DNA from: an uncultured Gemmatimonadota bacterium
Lineage (GTDB): Bacteria > Gemmatimonadota > Gemmatimonadetes > Gemmatimonadales > Gemmatimonadaceae
Length of the DNA: 40,031 nucleotides
Assembly (NCBI GenBank): GCA_902825965.1
Contig: CADEDA010000020.1
Coordinates: forward strand, 1-40,031
Direction of reading: 5' to 3'
Position 1 is the stretch's first letter. Every line of letters starts with the position of its first letter. Of the stretch, positions 277 to 40,031 are shown piece after piece. Below the pieces are notes generated by a model. It made no database searches. It was not told the origin of the DNA and was given only the letters and a program-made list of their open reading frames with translations. A program made the position numbers and the translations under genes.

Positions 277-711
277 TTACTTGATGGCGATGACCTTCAC
301 GCCGGCGGTCGCGGCACCTGCACTCACGTACCCGATGGCGCCGGGCGTGGCCTTCACGAACGCGAGCACTTCATCGTCCGAGGCCTTGGCCGCGGGCGGC
401 ACTTCCTTGCCGGCGAAGATCTGCTGCTGCCAGTAGGTCTCGATGGCCGACACCGCGCGACCGAGCACGGCGTTGGAGAACTCCGCCCGCGCGGCGCTGG
501 TCTTGGCCAGGTCCACCGGCTTGGCGGCGGCGCCCGACGGGAACTTGCTGACCTGCTTGAGGAAGATCTTGGCAGCCACGTCCTTGCTGAGCTCGGACTC
601 CGCGACGGACTCGTGGGCGATGACCTTGAAGCCCTGGGCCGAGGCCGGGCGTGCCGCCGCGGCGATCACGAGGACCGCGGCCAGCGCATGGAAGAATGAA
701 CGGATCGACAT
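277..711 (-). CDS. PstS-like periplasmic phosphate-binding family protein (small, about 144 aa)
   Basis: The product starts MSIRSFFHALAAVLVIAAAARPASAQ, a clear Sec signal peptide, followed by a mature domain of about 118 residues. The segments FKVIAHESV, SKDVAAKIFLKQVSKFPSG and ATPGAIGYVSAG fit the short PstS-like (COG0226-type) proteins, which are about half the length of a full phosphate-binding protein. The start at 711 is chosen because GAGGAG precedes it and the signal peptide begins there; upstream codons in this frame overlap the porin gene. The porin stop is only 13 bp upstream, so the two are probably co-transcribed. No PstABC permease is nearby, so it is more likely a ligand-binding or sensory accessory than part of a full transporter here. 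The ligand is not known from sequence. Confidence 0.8.
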   Translation of the reverse strand: MSIRSFFHALAAVLVIAAAARPASAQGFKVIAHESVAESELSKDVAAKIFLKQVSKFPSGAAAKPVDLAKTSAARAEFSNAVLGRAVSAIETYWQQQIFAGKEVPPAAKASDDEVLAFVKATPGAIGYVSAGAATAGVKVIAIK

Positions 712-724
712 GGATGGGTTCTCC

Positions 725-1855
725 TCAGAACGTGATCGCGACGGACGCGAGGAGATAGTGGGCCCGCGAGGCCGGCGCGATGCCGGCGACGAACGGCGGG
801 GCCGTGGGCGGGATGATGGTCGGCACGGCGATGTCGAAGTCATAGCCGGTGACGCGGTGACCCTCGAGCTTGAAGGCGACGTTGGCCGAGGGCGAGTACT
901 TCACGCCGACCGTGATCTCCTTGGAGGCCGGGATGGTGACGGCCGGGATCGGCGCGGGGAGGCCGATGGTCATCTTCATCTCCTGGTACTCGGTCGCGAT
1001 GGTCCAGTGCTCGGTCGGCGTGAAGCCGGCCTGCGTGTACCACGAACCGACGCTGCGGCGCTCACCCGAGTAGAACTCGGTCAGCTCGCCACGGACGAAG
1101 CCGAGGCGCTTCACGAGCTCGGCCGAGCCCATCCAGGTCCACGAGCGGTCGCCGCGGAGCGAGTCCGGCAGCGAGAGCCGCGGCGTGCCGGCGAACGAGT
1201 GCGCGTAGCCGCCGAAGCGGAGGCCGTCCACGGGCGTGTTCAGCCAGAGCTGCGTGCCGTACGAGTTCTCCTGGCGCGCCTGGTACACGGTGGAGCCGGA
1301 CGACCCGGCGAGCACCGCGCGGAGGTCGAAACCGCCGGCGAAGCCGTAGGTCTCGAGGCGGAAGCCGCCGAGGTCGAACGGCTTGCTGACGACGACGCCG
1401 TCGAGCTGCTCGAGCGTCTCGCCGTAGGCCACGCGGCCCACGCGGTAGAACGGCAGCAGCGTGCCGACGAAGCGCACTTCATTGAACAGGCCACGCGGCA
1501 GCGGCGTGCGGCCGAGCTTGACCTTGGTGCCGTTGTCGAACGTGTGCTCGTAGAACGCCCAGATGGGCGCGAAGTCCTTCTCGGCCGCGTTGAGCGGCGA
1601 CGTGCCGTTGACGCGGTGCAGGAACTGCGTCACCACGCGATCGTTGTCGTCGATCTTGTAGCCGAACTGCAGCGCGACGGCGCGGTAGTTGGTGCTGCCG
1701 TCCTTGTCGATGCCGAAGGTGGGCAGGCCGTCGGACTTGCCGTAGCCGACGTTGATCGAGCCGTGGATGGTGAGGCGGTCGGCGAGATCGGACTGGGCCG
1801 GAGCCGTGGTGGCGAGGATGGAGAGGGCGGCGAGGCAGAGGGCGAGCTTGGACAT
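725..1855 (-). CDS. Outer-membrane beta-barrel porin-like protein
   Basis: A protein of about 376 residues with a signal peptide (MSKLALCLAALSILATTAPAQ), alternating amphipathic segments rich in G, Y, F and T, and a C-terminal phenylalanine (ASVAITF), typical of outer-membrane beta-barrels recognised by the BAM machinery. FYEHTF, GTKVKLGRTPLPRG and the overall length suit porin families such as OprO/OprP-like or DcaP-like porins; the exact family is not certain. The start at 1855 is preferred because an in-frame ATG at 1876 would make the first seven codons part of a 7-bp tandem repeat. No Shine-Dalgarno is visible for either. It sits between a chemoreceptor upstream and a PstS-like gene downstream, suggesting a solute uptake and sensing group. 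Confidence 0.75.
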   Translation of the reverse strand: MSKLALCLAALSILATTAPAQSDLADRLTIHGSINVGYGKSDGLPTFGIDKDGSTNYRAVALQFGYKIDDNDRVVTQFLHRVNGTSPLNAAEKDFAPIWAFYEHTFDNGTKVKLGRTPLPRGLFNEVRFVGTLLPFYRVGRVAYGETLEQLDGVVVSKPFDLGGFRLETYGFAGGFDLRAVLAGSSGSTVYQARQENSYGTQLWLNTPVDGLRFGGYAHSFAGTPRLSLPDSLRGDRSWTWMGSAELVKRLGFVRGELTEFYSGERRSVGSWYTQAGFTPTEHWTIATEYQEMKMTIGLPAPIPAVTIPASKEITVGVKYSPSANVAFKLEGHRVTGYDFDIAVPTIIPPTAPPFVAGIAPASRAHYLLASVAITF

Positions 1856-1895
1856 TGGACGTTGGATGTTGGACATGGGATGGTGGACGGTGGAC
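1847..1895. repeat. Degenerate heptamer tandem repeat, 7 units of 7 bp
   Basis: On the plus strand the units are CTTGGAC, ATTGGAC, GTTGGAT, GTTGGAC, ATGGGAT, GGTGGAC and GGTGGAC, consensus NNTGGAC. The array starts over the porin start region and ends on the last base of the chemoreceptor stop codon, filling the junction exactly. Both candidate porin ATGs (1876 and 1855) lie inside it. Confidence 0.85.
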
Positions 1896-3898
1896 TACGA
1901 GGTGGTCTTGCTGCGCCGGCTCGCCCTGGTGACCGAACGCGGGAGTGCGGGAGTGCCGGCGATGCGGGAGCTCGGCTGCGAGGCGGCGTCGAGTGCGCCC
2001 ACGCGGAACTGGCTGGCGAGGTCCTGCATCTCTCCGGCCTGCGCGGAGAGTTCGGCGGCGGCTCCGGCGAACTCCTCGGCGTTGGCCGCGGTGCGCTGGG
2101 TGAGCATGGCCACCTGACCCATCGCCCCGGTGATCTCGGCGATGTCGTCGGTCTGCGACTTCGTCTCCTCGGCGATTCCTTGCATCATCGCGGAAGCGGA
2201 CTGCACGCTGGTCTTGATCTCGGCCAGGCGGCGGGCGACGCTGGCGTTGAGGGTCACACCCTGCTCCGCCTTGGCCACCGACAGCTCGATCAGCTTGGCG
2301 GTGTTGCGGGCAGCGTCGGCGGCGCGGATGGCGAGCGAGCGCACCTCGTCCGCCACCACGGCGAAGCCGCGGCCGGCATCGCCGGCGCGTGCGGCCTCGA
2401 CGGCGGCGTTGAGTGCCAGCAGGTTGGTCTGGAACGCGATCTCGTCGATGGACCGCACGATGCGGGCGGTGTCGTCGGCGGACTTCTTGATCTCGTTCAC
2501 GGCCGCGGCGAGGGTCTCCATGCGCGTCACACCCTCGTCGGTGATCTGGCGCGCCTTCTCCATCACACCGAAGGCCTCGGTGGCGCGGGTCGCGTTGGTG
2601 CGCGTGCGCTCGTCGACCTGCTGGAGCTTCTGCGTCACCTGGTCGAGGGCGCCGGCCTGGTCCGCCGCCGAGCTGGCGAGCTCGTGCGAGGCGGCACCGA
2701 TCTCGCCGCCAGCGGCGTTGACCTGCGCGATGGTCGCGGACAGCGACCCGAAGGCCTCGTCGATCTGCGCCAGCGCACGGTTGAGTGCCGTGGCCAGCGC
2801 CGCATGCTCGCCGGCATAGGCCGCGTCCACCCGCACGGTGAGGTCGCGGTCGGCGAGCTGCTCGAGCGCGGCGCGGGCGTTGCGCACCGGCTCCACCACC
2901 GACTCCAACAGGGCGTTGGTGCCCGCGATGAGCTCGCGGTACGCCCCATCGAAGCGCGCGGCGTCGCCGCGGCGCGAGAGTTCGCCGGCCTGCCCGGCGG
3001 CGATGAGGCCCTGGGCCTCACCGAGGATGCGCCGCAGTGTGCCCGTGGCGCCGTTGATGCTGCGCGAGAGCACGTCCGCGTCGGAGCGCGGCGTGACGTC
3101 CGACGAGAGGTCGCCGACCGCGAGACGGTCGGCCGCGCGCGACACGTCGCCGATGTAGGCGATCATGCCCCGGAACGACTCGGCCAGTGCGCCGAGTTCG
3201 TCACGGCTGTGCAACGTGATCTGCTGGTCGATGCGGCCTTCGGAGATCTCGTTGGCGGCCCGCGACAGCTCGCGTACGGCCCCGGTGATGGTACGCACGG
3301 TGTTGACCGCGAGCACGCCGAGCGCGGCGAGTACGACCAACAGGACGATGGAGACCACCCAGATCATGGTGGACTGGGCGGACTCCGCCGACGTGAAGGC
3401 CTCGGTGATGCGCCCGCGCTCGAAGCCGACGCGCGCGCTGAGGAGTTCCTTCATGGTGGCGGCGCCGGAGCGCATGGCCTGCATGGACTCGAGCGACATC
3501 TCGCCGCCGATCATGGCCTTGGTGCTCTGCCGGGCGAGGCCGGCATAGGCGGCCCAGGGGCGCGCGATGGAGTCGAGTGCCGCCTCGGTGTTCACCGAGA
3601 GCGCCCGCAGCGAGTCCAGCGTGCGGTCGAACTGCGCGACCAACGTATCCGTGGCATCGACGGCGGCCACGTCACTGGCGCCGACCGCGTCCTGCAGCGC
3701 GCGCTGGAAGGCGTCGAGGGTGCGTTCGAGCGACTGGCTATGGTCGAGCGACGGTGAGTAGGCGGACTGGACCAGCGACTGTTCGGTGCGGGCGGTGCGG
3801 CCGAGGACGACGGTCACGGCGAACGTGAGCGCGCAGCCGACAGCGGCCACCGCGGGGAGCGCGAGAATGCGCGCTCGCAAGGTCAGGCTGTTGAACAT
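1895..3898 (-). CDS. Membrane methyl-accepting chemotaxis protein
   Basis: A chemoreceptor of about 667 residues. It has TM1 (about residues 10-32), an extracytoplasmic helical ligand region of about 140 residues, TM2 (about 177-200, [20 protein letters not shown]), a HAMP region with a second HAMP-like stretch, and a long cytoplasmic coiled coil with the signalling tip [18 protein letters not shown] near residues 488-505. The tip binds CheA and CheW. Glutamate/glutamine-rich helices flank the tip and are likely CheR/CheB methylation sites. There is no C-terminal CheR-tethering pentapeptide. The start [10 protein letters not shown] is chosen from the family pattern; an upstream GTG at 3940 would add 14 unrelated residues. 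A sigma-28-like promoter lies at 3947-3973. The ligand is unknown. Confidence 0.95.
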
Positions 3899-27229: not shown

Positions 27230-28807
27230 ATGTTTCGTCTTGGCAAGCCGAAGGACCTTGAGCGTAGCTACGCCGCCGGCACCAATCTCGTCACTGATCC
27301 AGCTGTAAGGGAACGCATCGCGTTCATCGGCCTCACGACCGAGGACCTCGGCGTGGTGCAGACGTGGCGCGAGGCCGCAAGTGCAGCGCTGGACCAGCTG
27401 GTGGACGAGTTCTACGCACACATCGGCGGCACCGCCGCCACCCAGGCGATCCTGAAGCAGCACACCACCATCGAGCGCCAGCGCCCGATGCTCAAGCGCT
27501 ACATCTCGACCATGTTCGAGGGGCGCATCGACGACGCGTACGTCGCCGGCCGCCGTCACGTGGGCGCGATCCACGACCGCATCGACCTCGATTCGAACTG
27601 GTACGTCGGCATGTACGAGGTGATCCGCCGTGTGCTCGACCAGGCGGTGGTCGCGGCGGGCGCGACGGAACGTGAGCAGCGACGGTTCGCGGCCGCGCTC
27701 TCCCGCCTCATCCAGGTGGACATCGGCCTGGTGATCACCGCCCTCACCGACAGCCGCCGCGCGCGCATCGAGGCCGAGGCGAGCAAGGCGGAGCAGTTCG
27801 TGGACGGGCTGGGCAGCACGCTGGCCAAGGTCGCCGAGCGTGACCTCACTGCCACGTACCCCGGGACACCGCCGGATCGGTTCGTGGCCGTGGTGGAGTC
27901 GCTTGAGGTCGCGTTGCACGGCCTCCGCGACACGCTCTCGGAAGTCTCGTCGAGTGCGGCCGAGGTGACCTCGGCCGCGACCTCGGTGGAACTGAGTGGT
28001 GGCGAGCTCTCGCAGGCCGCGATGGAGCAGGCGTCGGCGATCGAGGAAGTCGGGGCAGCCGTGCACGAGCTCGAGTCGCAGTCGACGCAGACCGCCTCGC
28101 GGGCGCGCGACGCGCAGCAGCTCACCGCCGAGGGCGCCGCGGCCGCGCAGTCGGGTGACTCCCGCATGCGCGACCTGCAGAGCGCACTCGCGCGGATCGA
28201 CGAGACGAGCGCGAAGATGGCGACGATCGTGAAGTCGATCGACGCGATCGCGTTCCAGACCAACCTGCTGGCACTGAACGCGGCGGTCGAGGCCGCTCGC
28301 GCCGGCGACGCGGGGCGCGGGTTCGCGGTGGTTGCGGACGAGGTCCGTGCCCTCGCATTGCGCTGCGCCGAGGCGGCGCGGACGACGACGGACCTTATCA
28401 CCACGGCGCGCGGCGAATCCACCGACGGTGTGGCCATCGGCCGCGACGTCTCCACGCACCTGGCATCGGTCTCGGCGTCGGTGCAGGGCGTGCGCCAGGT
28501 GATGGACGAACTCGTGGAGGCCGCAGCGCAGCAGCGTGTCGGTCTCTCGGAGATCTCGGGCTCGATGGCGCGTATCTCGGACACGACGTCGCGCGTGGCG
28601 GCGTCGGCGGAGGAGAGCGCGGCGGCCGCCACCGAGCTCAATGGACAGGCGCGGTCGCTGGATGCGATGCTTGCCGCGTTCACCTTGGCCGAGCGTCGCC
28701 TGCACCCCGAACCGGGTCGCCAGAAGCGGCAAACAACGTCCCCGCGGCAAGAACTGCCGGGTGCACCGGCCTGGCAAAAGCGGGGTTCGAAGGTGCACGC
28801 GAACTGA
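27230..28807 (+). CDS. HemAT-like globin-coupled chemoreceptor (soluble aerotaxis transducer)
   Basis: A protein of 525 residues with no membrane segment. The N-terminal sensor-globin (protoglobin) domain, about 25-180, has [26 protein letters not shown] and [20 protein letters not shown], where His115 is the likely proximal haem ligand. The C-terminal half is a chemoreceptor signalling domain with tip [19 protein letters not shown] and [13 protein letters not shown]. Such proteins sense oxygen through haem and signal to CheA. A basic, Gln/Pro-rich tail of about 35 residues follows the coiled coil. It has its own sigma-28-like promoter, and a strong hairpin follows at 28835-28867. It lies between the sigma-54 activator and the flgB operon. 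Confidence 0.93.
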
Positions 28808-34129: not shown

Positions 34130-34144
34130 GGGCACGGCAGTTGC
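34130..34144 (+). promoter_or_regulatory. Strong sigma-54 promoter upstream of fliI
   Basis: GGCACGGCAGTTGC (34131-34144) matches the sigma-54 core GGCACG-N4-TTGC without mismatch. It lies in the 181-bp gap between fliH and fliI and predicts a start about 28 nt before the ATG. No hairpin terminator is seen in the gap, so fliI may also be read from upstream. Confidence 0.75.
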
Positions 34145-34182
34145 CTTTCACCACTGCGGACTCCCTTACCCGCTCGCCCACT

Positions 34183-35607
34183 ATGGTCTCTGCCAACCTG
34201 CTCGCGCTTCAGGACCGCCTCGTCGAGGTGCCGCGTCTGCGTCCGCTCGGACGTGTCACGCGCATCGTCGGGCTGGTGATGGAAGCGACGGGCCTGGAGC
34301 TCGGACTCGGCGCCCTCTGCCGCGTGACCAGCCTCTCGGACGATCACTCCGTGCTGGCCGAGGTGGTGGGATTCCACGAGCGCGGCGCGCTGCTCATGCC
34401 GCTTGGCGACATCGAAGGCATGCACCCGGGTGCCAGTGTCGCGGACCTGGGCCGCAACCTCGGCGTGCGCGTGGGCCAGGCCCTGCTCGGCCGCGTGGTG
34501 AACGCGCTCGGCACGCCGATCGACGGTCTGGGGAAGATCGACTTCGAAGGACGCGTCCCGCTCTCCAACGACCCGCCCAACCCGCTCCAGCGCGAGCGCA
34601 TCGACACGCCGTTCGTCACCGGCGTGCGCGCCATCGACGGCCTGCTCACCATCGGCCGCGGCCAGCGCGTGGGCATCTTCGCCGGCTCCGGCGTGGGCAA
34701 GTCGGTGCTGCTGGGCATGATCGCCCGCAAGGCCGAGAGCGACGTGAACGTGATCGCGCTGCTCGGCGAACGCGGCCGTGAGGTGCGCGAGTTCGTCGAG
34801 AACGCGCTGGGGCCCGAAGGCCTCGCGCGCTCGGTGATCATCGTGGCCACTGGCGACGAGTCCGCGCTGCTGCGGGCGCGCGGGGCCCTCGTCGCGACCG
34901 CGATCGCCGAGTGGTTCCGCGACCAAGGCAAGCAGGTCCTGTTGATGGTGGACTCCGTGACGCGTGTGGCCATGGCCTGGCGCGAGATCGGGCTCGCGGT
35001 GGGTGAGCCGCCCACCACCAAGGGGTATCCGCCCTCCGTGTTCGCCTACCTGCCGCGCCTGCTCGAACGCGCCGGCAACGGCAGCGTGGGCGGGATCACG
35101 GGGCTCTACACCGTACTCGTCGATGGCGACGACTTCACCGAACCGGTGGCCGACGCGAGCCGCTCGATCCTCGACGGGCACATCGTGCTCACGCGGCGGC
35201 TCGCGAGCTCGGGGCACTACCCGGCGATCGACATCCTCGACTCCAAGAGCCGCGTGCGCGATCACGTGATCACGCGCGCGCAGCGCGACAACGCCGGCAT
35301 GGTGCAACGCCTCGAGGCCGCGTACCGCGAGAAGGAGGACCTGATCCTCGTCGGCGCGTACCAGCGTGGCTCCAACGCCGTGGTCGATGCCGCGCTCGAG
35401 CTGCGGGGACCGATGCTGGACCTCCTGCAGCAGCCGCCGGAGGACTACACGCCGATGGACCGCACCGTGCAGCAGCTCAACGACATCGGCCAGCGCGCGA
35501 GCGCGGCCATCCCGCGCCCCGGTGCCGCACCGCGCGCCGCGGCGACCCACCTGCCGCCGGTGCCCCCGGTGTCCGCCCCGACCTCCGTGCCGAGGATGCC
35601 TGCGTGA
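34183..35607 (+). CDS. fliI: Flagellum-specific ATPase FliI
   Basis: A protein of 474 residues of the F1-beta/type III ATPase family. The P-loop is GSGVGKS (about 168-174), then LLGERGREVREF, Walker B LLMVDSVTRVAMAWREI, the FliI/YscN signature GEPPTTKGYPPSVFAYLPRL, and YTVLVDGDDF. It powers unfolding and chaperone release at the export gate. ATG 34183 is chosen because MVSANLL begins the family-like N-terminus and sits just after the sigma-54 promoter; an earlier TTG at 34141 lies inside that promoter. An Ala/Pro-rich tail of about 40 residues is additional. Confidence 0.97.
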   Translation: MVSANLLALQDRLVEVPRLRPLGRVTRIVGLVMEATGLELGLGALCRVTSLSDDHSVLAEVVGFHERGALLMPLGDIEGMHPGASVADLGRNLGVRVGQALLGRVVNALGTPIDGLGKIDFEGRVPLSNDPPNPLQRERIDTPFVTGVRAIDGLLTIGRGQRVGIFAGSGVGKSVLLGMIARKAESDVNVIALLGERGREVREFVENALGPEGLARSVIIVATGDESALLRARGALVATAIAEWFRDQGKQVLLMVDSVTRVAMAWREIGLAVGEPPTTKGYPPSVFAYLPRLLERAGNGSVGGITGLYTVLVDGDDFTEPVADASRSILDGHIVLTRRLASSGHYPAIDILDSKSRVRDHVITRAQRDNAGMVQRLEAAYREKEDLILVGAYQRGSNAVVDAALELRGPMLDLLQQPPEDYTPMDRTVQQLNDIGQRASAAIPRPGAAPRAAATHLPPVPPVSAPTSVPRMPA

Positions 35608-36086
35608 CCGCGCCATCGAACCGCTTCTCCTTCGGATTGCAGCGCGTGCTCGACCTGCGCGAGCAGCGCGAGCAGGCCGTGGCGATCCGCCTCGGCGCCG
35701 CCAACGAGGCCGCCACCGAAGCCCGCGCCGCGATGGATGCACTCGCCGCGGTGCGCAACGCCAACGGTGCCGACCTGGCCCGCGCGCACTCGCGCGCCCA
35801 ATCGGTCGGCCAGCTGCACCAGGCCGAGCGCGTGCTGCAGTCGCTCGACGTGCACCTGGACGTGGCGTCGGCCTCCGTCGCGGCCACGGAAGCCGCGGTC
35901 GAAGAGGCGCGCAACGCCCTGAACCTGGCCATGCAACAGCGCCGCATCATCTCCAAGCTCCGTGAACGCCGCGAGGAGGAATGGCGCCAGGCCAACACGC
36001 GCTCCGAGCGCTCCGCGATGGACGCGCTCGCGATCCAGCGGCACAGCCGCAATAGCAATCCCCACGGCATGGACGGTGTCGAATGA
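35604..36086 (+). CDS. fliJ: Flagellar export stalk protein FliJ
   Basis: A protein of 160 residues, almost entirely coiled coil: FGLQRVLDLREQREQAVAIRLGAA at the start and LNLAMQQRRIISKLRERREEEW toward the end, as in FliJ. It acts as a central shaft of the FliI ring and interacts with FlhA. The GTG start overlaps the fliI stop as GTGA, and the stop overlaps the next ATG as ATGA. Confidence 0.92.
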   Translation: MTAPSNRFSFGLQRVLDLREQREQAVAIRLGAANEAATEARAAMDALAAVRNANGADLARAHSRAQSVGQLHQAERVLQSLDVHLDVASASVAATEAAVEEARNALNLAMQQRRIISKLRERREEEWRQANTRSERSAMDALAIQRHSRNSNPHGMDGVE

Positions 36087-36718
36087 AGGCCCTGATGCTC
36101 CCGATCATCGCGTTCCTCGTGTCGTTCGCCATCGGCGGCGGTGCGGGCGCGGTGTTGATGAAGCCCGCCGCAGTGGCGGACTCCACGCATGCGGACTCCA
36201 CCCACGCGGACTCCACGCACGGCGATTCGGCCAAGGCCGGGCATGCGCCGGCGGCCGGCGCCGCCACCGAGGTCGCGCACGGCGCCGAGTCGGCACCGGA
36301 CAGCGCACGCATCGCCGACGACCCGCATGTCGCCGACCCCGGCCATGCACCGGCGCCGAGTGAGCAGCCGGGCCCCGGCGGCCCGCCGGGCACGACGACG
36401 ATCAACCGCCTCGTGCAAGCCCAGGCCGGCGCGACGGTGCAACTGCGCCGCGACGGACGCATCGGCCCCGAGGGTGGCGCCGCGGCCAAGCCGGACTCCA
36501 TGCCCGACTACGCACGTCTCGCGCGCCTGCTCTCCAAGATGGGCCCGCGCGAAGCCGCCAAGACGATCGAACAACTCGAGGGCACCGAAGCCGCGCGCGC
36601 CCTCGCCGCGATGAGTGACAAGCAGGCCGCGCTGGTGTTGCAGCAGCTCTCGCCGGAGAAGGCCGCGCGCCTGCTCCAGGCCACGCTCGCCCTCATTCCC
36701 AAGGCGCCCGTCCCGTGA
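36083..36718 (+). CDS. MotE-like protein (MgtE-N/FliG-like helical domain)
   Basis: A protein of 211 residues. An N-terminal membrane anchor (MLPIIAFLVSFAIGGGAGAVLM, about 5-26) is followed by a long low-complexity linker. The linker includes three 15-bp repeats at 36176-36220 encoding ADSTH units, and is rich in His, Asp, Ala and Pro. The C-terminal helical domain (about 145-205) has LARLLSKMGPREAAKTIEQL and LAAMSDKQAALVLQQLSPEKAARLL, the MgtE-N-like pattern of MotE. MotE acts in some bacteria as a chaperone for motor proteins such as MotC. No motC is in view. It is translationally coupled to fliJ and fliK by ATGA-type overlaps. Confidence 0.8.
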   Translation: MKALMLPIIAFLVSFAIGGGAGAVLMKPAAVADSTHADSTHADSTHGDSAKAGHAPAAGAATEVAHGAESAPDSARIADDPHVADPGHAPAPSEQPGPGGPPGTTTINRLVQAQAGATVQLRRDGRIGPEGGAAAKPDSMPDYARLARLLSKMGPREAAKTIEQLEGTEAARALAAMSDKQAALVLQQLSPEKAARLLQATLALIPKAPVP

Positions 36719-38646
36719 ACGTCCTTTCCGTGCTGCCCACCGCTGCACCCGTTGGTGCACCCGTTGGTGCACCCCTCGGCGCCGAGGCGACGCCCCGTGA
36801 GGTCGCCGCGAAGGTCGACCGCGCCGCGGCCGATGAGTTCGCCAGCGTGCTCAACGCAGCGCTGCAGCCCAGTCCACCCACTCCGCTCCCCACGTCCGTC
36901 AAGAAGGTCGCGATCGAGGATCTCGTCGACGCGAACTGCTGCGGCGTGGCGGCGCGTGAGGGTGTGAGCGAGGGCGAGGCGACGAGCGCCCTGCCATTCG
37001 ATCACGTGCTGACCGACGAGCCCATGCCGGTGCTGTTCCCGGCCGAGGGTGCGCGTCACGAGCGCGTGGCCAACCCCCAGTTGATCCCAGACGCGTCAGC
37101 GACGGACCGCGCGGCGGCGACCGCCGCCGGCTCAAGCGAGTCCGACGACGCGACCGCAGCCGAGAGCGCCACCTCCGGCAGCGCGCGCGTAGGTGCACGC
37201 ATGGGTGCGCGCCGCGCGGCCCGCGTGAACGCCGCCGCAGCCAAGGCGCTCTCCTCCACCATGACCATGGACGCCGCCTTCGCCGGCAAGCTCGCGACGG
37301 TGATCGCCGGTATGCGCGAGGCGGGCCACGAGGTCGAGGTGCTCGAGACCGTGCGCAGCGACGCGCGCCAGCGCGCCCTGTACGCGCAGGGACGCACCAC
37401 ACCGGGCAACGTGGTCACCTGGACCCTCGACTCGCAGCACATGCGCGGACAGGCCGCCGACCTCAAGGTGGATGGCGCCTGGTCCGGGCCGGGATATGAT
37501 GTCCTGCAGCGTCTGGCGAAGGAGGCCGGACTCCACACGTTGGGTGCCAAGGATCCGGGGCACGTCGAACTTCCCCGGACGACAGCGGACGCAAGGGATG
37601 GCGCCGCTGCTCGTCACGGATTGACCGTGATGCGCGGCTCCGGCGTGGCGCAGGTGGCGCGGGTCGCCGAGGTGGCACAGGTCGCGCGCGTGGCGACGCC
37701 GGGTGCCTTCGTGCGCTCCCGCGCGAGCGACACCAGCGGCACACCCGTTCCCAGCTCCGCACTCTCCGCGTCGGCCGCCTGGGCCGCGCGCACCACCCCG
37801 AAGGACGGCAGCACCGTCGCCATGGCGCAGCTCACGGCGCGCCCGTCGGCGGCACGTGGCGACGCGACCGTGCCGGCGGACGAGCAGGCGTCACTGCCCT
37901 TCATCGCCGGTACTTCGGCGGCCGATGCCGCCGCCCCCGCGGACGGCCTGCGCGTCGCCTCGCGCGAGTCGTCGCGCGAGATGACCCGCGACACGGCACG
38001 GGACGGCGGAGAGGCGACACGCGACGCCGACCGCGAGTCGGCCGAGGCGGCGCGCACGCTGCGATCGCCGTCGTCGCTCGTGGTGGACCGCGAGTTGATG
38101 ACCACACTCGGCGATCACACGCGTCCGATCGGGCGCAACGTGTTCGGCGGCAGCAGCACGACGCCGGTGAGCGCCTCGCACGCGGCCGAACGCGCCGCCG
38201 AACTGATCGCCGCCCGCGACGCGGCACCGGCGCCCACGGTCGGCGAGCTGCGGTTGAGCTTCGACCCTTCACGCGACGGCTTGGATGAGGTGCGCCTCGC
38301 CGTCTCCGGCCGCGACCTCGACGCCACGCTGCGCACCAGCGACGCCGGGGTGGCCTACGGCCTGCAGAGCGAGATCGCCTCGCTCACGCGCTCGCTCGAG
38401 CGGCAGGGCTTCGACTCGGCGCGCGTCGCCGTGGCGCTCGACCAATCGCAGCAGCAACGCGCCGCGGCGCTCGACACCGTGGCGCAGTCGGAGGCCACCG
38501 CTGCCGACCGTGCGCTCCGCGGCGACAGTGACGCCGCCCGCGAAGGCCGCGAGCAGCAGACCGCGCGGCGCGAGCAGCAGCACGACCAACACCGTGACCA
38601 ACAGCGCGCCCGCGTCCTGGGCTCGCGCTTCCCCCGCAGCTTCTGA
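36715..38646 (+). CDS. fliK: FliK-like hook-length protein with an inserted M15-type peptidoglycan peptidase domain
   Basis: A protein of 643 residues in one unbroken frame. The N-terminus starts with a 12-bp repeat (GAPV units) and is disordered. Residues about 185-290 form an M15/VanY-like peptidase domain: RSDARQRALYAQGR, then SQHMRGQAAD with zinc ligands His242 and Asp249 in the SxHxxGxAxD pattern, then DPGHVEL with His283 as the third ligand and Asp280 in the usual acid/base position. A long Ala/Thr/Arg linker follows, including a duplicated VAQVARVAE segment and an SRE/TRD-rich stretch. The C-terminal region (about 505-570) is FliK-like: ELRLSFDPSRDGLDEVRLAVSG and ERQGFDSARVAVAL, then a Gln/Arg tail. 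FliK sets hook length and is exported. The fusion is unusual. The fliJ-motE-fliK-flgD-flgE order supports FliK. Confidence 0.87.
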   Translation: MNVLSVLPTAAPVGAPVGAPLGAEATPREVAAKVDRAAADEFASVLNAALQPSPPTPLPTSVKKVAIEDLVDANCCGVAAREGVSEGEATSALPFDHVLTDEPMPVLFPAEGARHERVANPQLIPDASATDRAAATAAGSSESDDATAAESATSGSARVGARMGARRAARVNAAAAKALSSTMTMDAAFAGKLATVIAGMREAGHEVEVLETVRSDARQRALYAQGRTTPGNVVTWTLDSQHMRGQAADLKVDGAWSGPGYDVLQRLAKEAGLHTLGAKDPGHVELPRTTADARDGAAARHGLTVMRGSGVAQVARVAEVAQVARVATPGAFVRSRASDTSGTPVPSSALSASAAWAARTTPKDGSTVAMAQLTARPSAARGDATVPADEQASLPFIAGTSAADAAAPADGLRVASRESSREMTRDTARDGGEATRDADRESAEAARTLRSPSSLVVDRELMTTLGDHTRPIGRNVFGGSSTTPVSASHAAERAAELIAARDAAPAPTVGELRLSFDPSRDGLDEVRLAVSGRDLDATLRTSDAGVAYGLQSEIASLTRSLERQGFDSARVAVALDQSQQQRAAALDTVAQSEATAADRALRGDSDAAREGREQQTARREQQHDQHRDQQRARVLGSRFPRSF

Positions 38647-38664: not shown

Positions 38665-38937
38665 ATGATCACCTTCCCGACCGCCGGCGTCTCTCCCTTC
38701 ACCGGCCCCACCGCCAACGCGGCGGATGATCCGGCCGAGACGCGCACCAACGCGCAGCAGACCAAGGACATGTTCCTCAAGCTGCTGGTCGCGCAGATGA
38801 AGAACCAGGACCCCACCAACCCGGCCTCGCCGGACCAGCTCGCCGCCCAGCTCGCGCAGTTCTCCAGCCTCGAGCAGTTGGTGAGCATCAACGAGAAGCT
38901 CGACAACATCGGCATGCTGCCGCTCCCGACTGAATGA
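38665..38937 (+). CDS. flgD: Hook cap protein FlgD, N-terminal form only
   Basis: A protein of 90 residues. The conserved FlgD N-terminal core is clear: TKDMFLKLLVAQMKNQDPTNPASPDQLAAQLAQFSSLEQL, then INEKLDNIGML. It lacks the C-terminal beta (Ig-like and Tudor-like) domains that bring most FlgD proteins to about 220 residues. The stop is followed within 42 bp by flgE, with no leftover coding sequence. FlgD caps the growing hook so FlgE can assemble. Confidence 0.9.
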   Translation: MITFPTAGVSPFTGPTANAADDPAETRTNAQQTKDMFLKLLVAQMKNQDPTNPASPDQLAAQLAQFSSLEQLVSINEKLDNIGMLPLPTE

Positions 38938-38979: not shown

Positions 38980-40031
38980 ATGCTCCGCTCACTGTTCTCC
39001 GGCGTCACTGGCCTGCGCAATCACCAGCTCCGCCTCGACGTCATCGGCAACAACGTGGCCAACGTGAACACCACGGCCTTCAAGTCCGGCCGCGTCGCGT
39101 TCAAGGAAGGCTTCGCCCAGCTCGTCTCCGGCGCCACGCGCCCGCCCGGCGACCAGGGTGGCGTGAACCCGGTGCAGGTCGGCCTCGGCTCGCAGGTCGC
39201 GTCGGTCGACACGCTGTTCTCGCAGGGCAACGTCGAGACCACCGGCCTCGGCACCGACATGGCGATCCAGGGCGACTCGTTCTTCGTCGTCGCCAAGGGC
39301 AACCAGTTCTTCTACACGCGCGCCGGCAACTTCCAGCTCGACGCCGACGGTCGCCTCGTGTCGCCGTCCAACGGCTTCGTGGTGCAGGGCCGCGTGGCGA
39401 TCAACGGGGTCTTTCAGGACGGCATCCGCGACATCACGCTGCCGTTCGGCCAGAAGACCGCCGCCCTCGCGACCACCAACGTCACGCTCGCCGGCAACAT
39501 CGATGCGGCGGCGCAGGTGTTCGACCAGGGCCCGGCCGCCACGCTCGACCCGCTCGATCCCGACCAGCGCGCGGTGACGGGCAATGAGCGCTCCTACAAG
39601 GACGTCTCCATCACCGTGTTCGACTCGCTCGGCGAGGAGCACGAGCTCAAGATCGTGCTCTACAAGACCGGTCCGAGCGAGTGGAGCTGGCAGATCGATC
39701 CGCAGGGCATGGACATCGACGCGACGTTCGGCACCAACGGCATCCAGATCGACCAGGGCACCAACCCGTTCGTGTTCCTGGATGACGGCACCATGGACAT
39801 CAACCCGGCCACGTTCGAGCCGCCGCGCATCACGTTCCGCCCGAACTCCGGCGCCACGGACGTGACCATCACGATCGACCCGCGGGGCAACGGCGTGAAC
39901 GGCCTGACGCAGTTCGCCGGCACGCACAACTCCGTGCTGCGCGACCAGAACGGCTACACGTCGGGCACGCTGCAGAACTTCTCGATCGACCGCACCGGCA
40001 CCATCGTGGGCGCCTTCACCAACGGCACCAC
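38980..40031 (+). CDS. flgE: Flagellar hook protein FlgE (3' end beyond the window)
   Basis: About 350 residues are visible before the right edge. The N-terminus is MLRSLFSGVTGLRNHQLRLDVIGNNVANVNTTAFKSGRVAFKE, the rod/hook motif (GNNVANVNTTAFK) that sets FlgE apart from FliC-type proteins. GDSFFVVAKGNQFFYTRAGNFQLDADGRLVSPSNGFVVQG and SYKDVSITVFDSLGEEHELKI are typical FlgE segments. It polymerises into the hook. The ATG has GAGG 5 nt upstream. The frame is open to the edge. Confidence 0.97.
   Translation, partial: MLRSLFSGVTGLRNHQLRLDVIGNNVANVNTTAFKSGRVAFKEGFAQLVSGATRPPGDQGGVNPVQVGLGSQVASVDTLFSQGNVETTGLGTDMAIQGDSFFVVAKGNQFFYTRAGNFQLDADGRLVSPSNGFVVQGRVAINGVFQDGIRDITLPFGQKTAALATTNVTLAGNIDAAAQVFDQGPAATLDPLDPDQRAVTGNERSYKDVSITVFDSLGEEHELKIVLYKTGPSEWSWQIDPQGMDIDATFGTNGIQIDQGTNPFVFLDDGTMDINPATFEPPRITFRPNSGATDVTITIDPRGNGVNGLTQFAGTHNSVLRDQNGYTSGTLQNFSIDRTGTIVGAFTNGT

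Follow-up and report, generated by a model that had tools for sequence, protein, structure and literature searches.

A predicted M15 peptidase domain within the flagellar hook-length protein FliK of Gemmatimonadota

The peptidoglycan mesh is too narrow for the flagellar rod, and a hole is therefore needed; it is made by FlgJ in Salmonella and E. coli and by partner lytic transglycosylases in other bacteria (PMC8517470). Two arrangements come closest to the one reported here. In beta- and gamma-proteobacteria, a dual-domain FlgJ joins the rod cap to a glucosaminidase and is thereby a secreted flagellar carrier of a peptidoglycan cutter, while a hydrolase-free, single-domain FlgJ is found with a separate lytic transglycosylase such as Rhodobacter SltF or the Borrelia LTase (PMC8517470). 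Two early flagellar export signals have been described (PMC8983047). Salmonella secretes the hook-length ruler FliK at intervals while rod and hook are being formed, and a FliK-beta-lactamase fusion was periplasmic during rod assembly, giving ampicillin resistance there (PMC13344023). An enzyme attached to FliK can therefore get through the exporter and fold on the periplasmic side. Salmonella FliK itself has, to our knowledge, no enzymatic domain.

Here, we examined a FliK from an uncultured Gemmatimonadota bacterium that carries a domain of the M15 peptidase family. The gene lies in a contig stretch of 40,031 nucleotides, called the window below. The initial annotation knew of no precedent for such a FliK, and in the open-access papers searched we also found no published description.

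The fusion gene, its operon and its domains

The gene order around the fusion is fliF-fliG-fliH-fliI-fliJ-(MgtE_N protein)-fliK-flgD-flgE. Further along the same contig are fliM, an export-gate gene (PF01311), rod genes, flgH, flgI, flgJ, flgN, flgK, csrA and motA. The fusion and its immediate neighbours are as follows.

34141..35607, + strand: fliI, upstream neighbour (Pfam ATP-synt_ab, T3SS_ATPase_C)
35604..36086, + strand: fliJ, upstream neighbour (Pfam FliJ, 9.5e-12)
36083..36718, + strand: MgtE_N protein (Pfam MgtE_N, 3.9e-7)
36715..38646, + strand: fliK-M15 fusion gene, 643 aa (single open frame; orthologues share the architecture)
38665..38937, + strand: flgD (hook cap), short, 90 aa (Pfam FlgD, 2.8e-22)
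38980..40031, + strand: flgE (hook), extending past the window end (Pfam FlgE_D2 and Flg_bb_rod on the full gene)

The fusion frame has a GTG start and overlaps the stop of the upstream MgtE_N gene, which we take to occupy the usual ylxF position of flagellar operons. This FlgD has only 19 residues between its QLAQFSSLEQ motif and the C terminus; most M15-FliK loci have about 155-180 residues at this position, and five others are short too. Elsewhere in the window, a protoglobin-MCP fusion (a globin-coupled chemotaxis sensor, 27230-28807) adjoins the flagellar cluster. A putative gene, an open frame of 1104 aa at 443-3757, lies upstream of a PAS-histidine kinase hybrid and gave no Pfam or NCBIfam match.

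Within the fusion protein, the following parts were mapped.

36715..36852, + strand: N-terminal region, residues 1-46, small non-polar residues with FASVL at 42-46 (sequence)
37255..37590, + strand: M15 peptidase domain, residues 181-292 (PHROG, phmmer, family profile, AlphaFold model, PDB matches)
37438..37440, + strand: His242, predicted zinc ligand (SxHxxGxAxD alignment; invariant 61/61)
37459..37461, + strand: Asp249, predicted zinc ligand (invariant 61/61)
37552..37554, + strand: Asp280, predicted catalytic acid/base (invariant 61/61; D-x-x-H spacing as in PlyP56)
37561..37563, + strand: His283, predicted zinc ligand (invariant 61/61)
37642..37695, + strand: residues 310-327, VAxVAxVA repeats following the M15 domain (pattern common to most of 15 orthologues)
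38227..38457, + strand: FliK C-terminal domain (Flg_hook, PF02120), residues 505-581 (Pfam)

The protein is a genuine FliK by its C-terminal Flg_hook domain and its placement between fliI/fliJ and flgD/flgE. With the whole protein as query, Flg_hook was matched at 6.8e-7, slightly below the cut-off, and the C-terminal part scanned alone was above it (32.1 bits against 29.8); the same domain was matched in 42 of 53 orthologue C-termini. A Foldseek search with the model of the C-terminal core gave FliK-C (2rrl) as the top match, a weak one (probability 0.93, E 0.019), with PscP also listed. Export by the flagellar type III exporter, hook-length control and the specificity switch, the usual FliK roles, are presumed for this protein. 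No rod-binding match was found in it by Pfam. At the other end, the N terminus appears to resemble the two early flagellar export signals, with FASVL as a candidate for the FxxxPhi form; the FA..L pattern is kept in most of the 15 orthologues from the search of relatives described below, and no Sec signal peptide was obvious on inspection of the sequence. An A.VA.VA.VA.VA.VA pattern is likewise present in most of these orthologues, within a linker that is not conserved around it. The Flg_hook domain, the operon place and, in outline, the early export signals are common to the fusion and Salmonella FliK; the fusion protein differs in being longer and in having the M15 domain in its N-terminal half.

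For the M15 domain, the initial annotation had described a complete set of motifs and of predicted zinc and acid/base residues in one frame with FliK, and this description was borne out. The motifs read S240-x-H242-xx-G245-x-A247-x-D249 and D280-P-G-H283-V-E-L, with R214 and RQRALYAQGR located N-terminal to the first. The PHROG endolysin families matched the M15 part at 6e-19, phmmer against PDB sequences returned LysB4 (2e-6) and Ply500 (8e-6), and a family profile reached both at 4e-18, the SxHxxGxAxD and DxxH elements falling in register. A structure model gave a concordant result: the AlphaFold model of the domain has a mean pLDDT of 86.7, and in the PDB it is matched best by Ply500 (Z 14.2 and rmsd 2.2 across 115 residues) and LysB4 (Z 13.9), followed by LysECD7 and ChiX and, behind these, by L,D-/D,D-carboxypeptidases and hedgehog proteins. 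Ply500 binds zinc through His80, Asp87 and His133 (PMC3315420), and the acid/base of PlyP56 is the Asp three residues ahead of the last His (PMC5977269); the spacing of H242, D249, D280 and H283 is that of these characterised residues.

The M15 assignment holds for the fold, with a correction as to the kind. Since Ply500, LysB4, LysECD7 and ChiX outscore the carboxypeptidases, the closest kind is an L-Ala-D-Glu endopeptidase, and a VanY/VanX carboxypeptidase is less likely. The comparison with Pfam M15/VanY profiles was also divided. The studied protein gave only sub-threshold matches in its M15 part (VanY, 14.1 bits where the cut-off is 25), and 37 of the 64 aligned members, four from outside the phylum included, had VanY matches with E no higher than 0.01, the lowest being 2.7e-8; this cut-off is a detection threshold and no biological criterion. 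From sequence and model together, the two domain identities, an M15 domain of the L-Ala-D-Glu endopeptidase type and a FliK, are nearly certain, and the M15 domain is very likely an active peptidase. It has the fold, zinc ligands, acid/base and SxHxxGxAxD motif in common with the phage endolysins Ply500 and LysB4 and the bacterial ChiX and CwlK. Unlike Ply500 and LysB4, it has no adjacent cell-wall-binding domain and is carried by a flagellar ruler, and its substrate is a prediction.

Conservation of the fusion and distribution in the phylum

In a search of 60 relatives and the genome itself, the gene was found in 15 genomes, all of which (15/15) carry the domain with an intact motif. A second collection, obtained by a pattern-based scan of GTDB genome contigs, added the same fusion in 62 further Gemmatimonadota loci, with the flagellar neighbours fliI, fliJ, flgD and flgE in operon order at 62/62. 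Since 62 other loci carry this fusion within a matching operon, chance is ruled out, and so is a frameshift across two genes, the kind of error that the initial annotation had named as a danger. A sequencing or assembly error could have drawn on the Pfam score of the M15 part lying under the curated cut-off; set against both collections and a fold match at Z 14, its probability is negligible.

The residues H242, D249, D280, H283, R214 and Q219 are invariant in 61/61 domains, counted over the 61 unbroken frames and leaving out L092, which is split in two frames. Protein length outside the M15 domain varies widely among loci. Against the nearest relative, dN/dS (Nei-Gojobori) was 0.11 for both M15 and FliK_C and 0.55 and 0.80 for the flanking segments. 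Against two more distant relatives, the values were 0.50 and 0.27 for M15, 0.24 and 0.35 for FliK_C and 0.59-0.75 for the N-terminal and linker segments, of which the ranking alone is readable because dS is high and the flank alignments are uncertain. Distances between M15 domains track those between FliI proteins (Mantel r 0.65; as high in 0/2000 permutations), which is compatible with mostly vertical descent. In the M15 domain tree the labels are strongly clustered, and the domain may have a single origin; the tree has few columns, too few for proof.

A few M15-FliK loci stand under Planctomycetota, Kuenenia or 'bacterium' records and are presumably mislabelled or mis-binned; L092 and L105, labelled Planctomycetota and Candidatus Kuenenia, have Gemmatimonadota-like flagellar operons with M15-FliK. 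Matches outside the phylum (L151-L168) are frames of 149-556 aa, mostly endolysin-sized and without flagellar neighbours. Among the families of the phylum, for which f1 to f10 are working labels, the M15 matches of f6 (L171, L172, L176) were rejected as FliK, no fliI, fliJ, flgD or flgE neighbours being present in the stretches fetched. These proteins, of up to 373-410 aa, have a related M15-like domain with an expanded SxH motif and changed spacing.

We sampled 249 genomes of the phylum, calling FlgJ by PF10135 and M15-FliK at E < 1e-40. FlgJ was found in 67 and M15-FliK in 53. M15-FliK is present in 52 of the 67 FlgJ-positive genomes, and FlgJ in 52 of the 53 M15-FliK genomes, the exception being G121 (f1), which gave no FlgJ match. 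By family, FlgJ-positive genomes with M15-FliK number 45/46 in f1, 2/2 in f4, 5/6 in f5, 0/7 in f2 and 0/6 in f10, which is outside the class.

The initial annotation had also noted that FlgJ is absent, which holds for the window and not for the contig, as flgJ lies about 13.4 kb past the window end (L169:15479-15799; G000:C20:53478-53798). This FlgJ has 106 aa with the rod-binding domain PF10135, and no hydrolase was found on it; it is not a muralytic FlgJ of the dual-domain kind, in which a hydrolase is joined to the rod-binding domain. Across the family loci fetched, FlgJ extends no more than 62 residues past its best rod-binding match, which leaves too little room for a hydrolase. Searches of the genome found two SLT proteins, both on contigs other than the flagellar one, and no glucosaminidase; the flagellar contig itself gave neither an SLT nor a glucosaminidase gene.

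In f10, FlgJ has a C-terminal SLT domain behind the rod-binding domain in 6/6 genomes (L178, L181, L188, L191, L192, L193; E 7e-30 to 2e-31), and no M15-FliK was found in these six. This dual-domain FlgJ is of the SLT transglycosylase type, unlike the glucosaminidase type of enterobacteria. None of the genomes examined has both a FlgJ hydrolase and M15-FliK; this fits an exchange in which the wall-cutting domain changed its carrier, and there may have been one such event. The suggestion that FliK might supply FlgJ's activity gains from this pattern and from the rod-binding-only FlgJ of the studied genome.

Two cases lack an intact domain. The flagellated sister family f2 (L182, L183, L184, L185) has no M15 on FliK and no FlgJ hydrolase where read (four FliKs read, three FlgJs scanned with Pfam and six measured); a separate hydrolase was sought there as SLT or glucosaminidase, with no SLT match near flgJ and no glucosaminidase at all. 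In G065, the f1 exception, FliK (L170:4833-6554, - strand) has a decayed M15 domain with changed metal-binding His/Asp positions. Homology extends over the full length (hhalign 96.6%), and the operon, fliI-fliJ-fliK-flgD-flgE, is otherwise normal, making G065 a natural loss-of-function case. Taken together, f2 and G065 show that flagellar genes can be kept without an intact domain.

A probable role in opening the wall

We propose that, in the majority of the flagellated Gemmatimonadota sampled, the M15 domain of FliK probably eases passage of the growing flagellum through the wall, replacing the usual FlgJ-attached cutter. The flagellar type III exporter would accept FliK as an early substrate and release it into the periplasm during rod growth. 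The M15 domain would pass the channel unfolded, refold outside and bind zinc, and would then cut peptidoglycan stem peptides where the flagellum is being assembled, so that the mesh opens for the distal rod and/or the P-ring. Once the outer membrane is penetrated, later FliK copies would leave the cell and act as ruler and switch only. FliK would in this way take over the wall-cutting job held elsewhere by the muralytic domain of FlgJ or by a partner lytic transglycosylase. Compared with dual-domain FlgJ, the hook-length ruler FliK takes the place of the rod cap as carrier, and the enzyme is a predicted stem-peptide zinc peptidase, not a glycosidase or transglycosylase. Compared with SltF and the LTase, the enzyme is part of FliK instead of a free protein, and would presumably leave through the flagellar exporter.

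For this role we count the M15 fold and motifs, the low dN/dS of M15 and FliK_C, the invariant residues, the operon context, the co-occurrence with FlgJ, the hydrolase-free FlgJ of the genome, the FlgJ-SLT of f10 in genomes lacking M15-FliK, and the periplasmic FliK-beta-lactamase of Salmonella; against it count f2 without the domain, the decay in G065, an SLT/M15 exchange that may go back to one event, and the general periplasmic SLT enzymes of the genome, which could do the wall-opening job. On this balance, peptidoglycan remodelling for rod or hook assembly by the FliK M15 domain appears moderately probable.

The predicted active peptidase may instead work elsewhere, on the wall at the finished basal body, as a secreted enzyme on fragments or neighbours, or on a protein such as a cap. 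FliK secretion does go on during hook growth (PMC13344023), and phage endolysins that lyse cells are among the nearest sequence relatives; the link to a hydrolase-free FlgJ favours an assembly step, and we consider action elsewhere unlikely. Few FliK molecules are exported, so the killing of neighbours in particular is not to be expected.

The initial annotation offered a length- or timing-setting module as an alternative, in which a folded insert slows passage through the channel or adds length and catalysis is irrelevant. That a ruler protein carries the domain in its N-terminal half would suit this, as would G065, which kept FliK and lost the metal ligands. The catalytic and substrate-side residues are nevertheless invariant in every unbroken frame, while length outside the domain varies, and conservation of metal ligands is not expected of a simple spacer. 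The module reading is weakened to the point of being improbable; a non-catalytic domain was rejected as the rule and holds for G065 only.

A rod-phase peptidase could also be an accessory, with the main hole made by a separate periplasmic lytic transglycosylase. The two SLT proteins encoded elsewhere in the genome could serve, f2 and G065 manage without M15, and M15 enzymes cut peptides rather than glycan strands. The near-universal retention of M15-FliK in f1, f4 and f5, and a flagellar contig without an SLT or glucosaminidase match, make this division of labour quite improbable.

Returning to the wall-opening role, we suggest tentatively, with somewhat less than even confidence, that Gemmatimonadota moved the cutter from the rod cap (FlgJ-SLT, as in f10) to FliK-M15. 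The bond cut would have changed with this move, and one exported protein would open the wall and measure the hook.

A flagellum with an external filament must cross the wall, and in many phyla the hole-making enzyme is unnamed. M15-FliK is a candidate hole-maker for an entire class, in most of the flagellated members that were sampled, and FliK as carrier of a wall cutter is new as far as the open-access literature shows. The FlgJ-SLT and FliK-M15 lineages form a natural comparison. If the prediction is right, the flagellar exporter would pass a zinc peptidase, and rulers would be able to carry enzymes.
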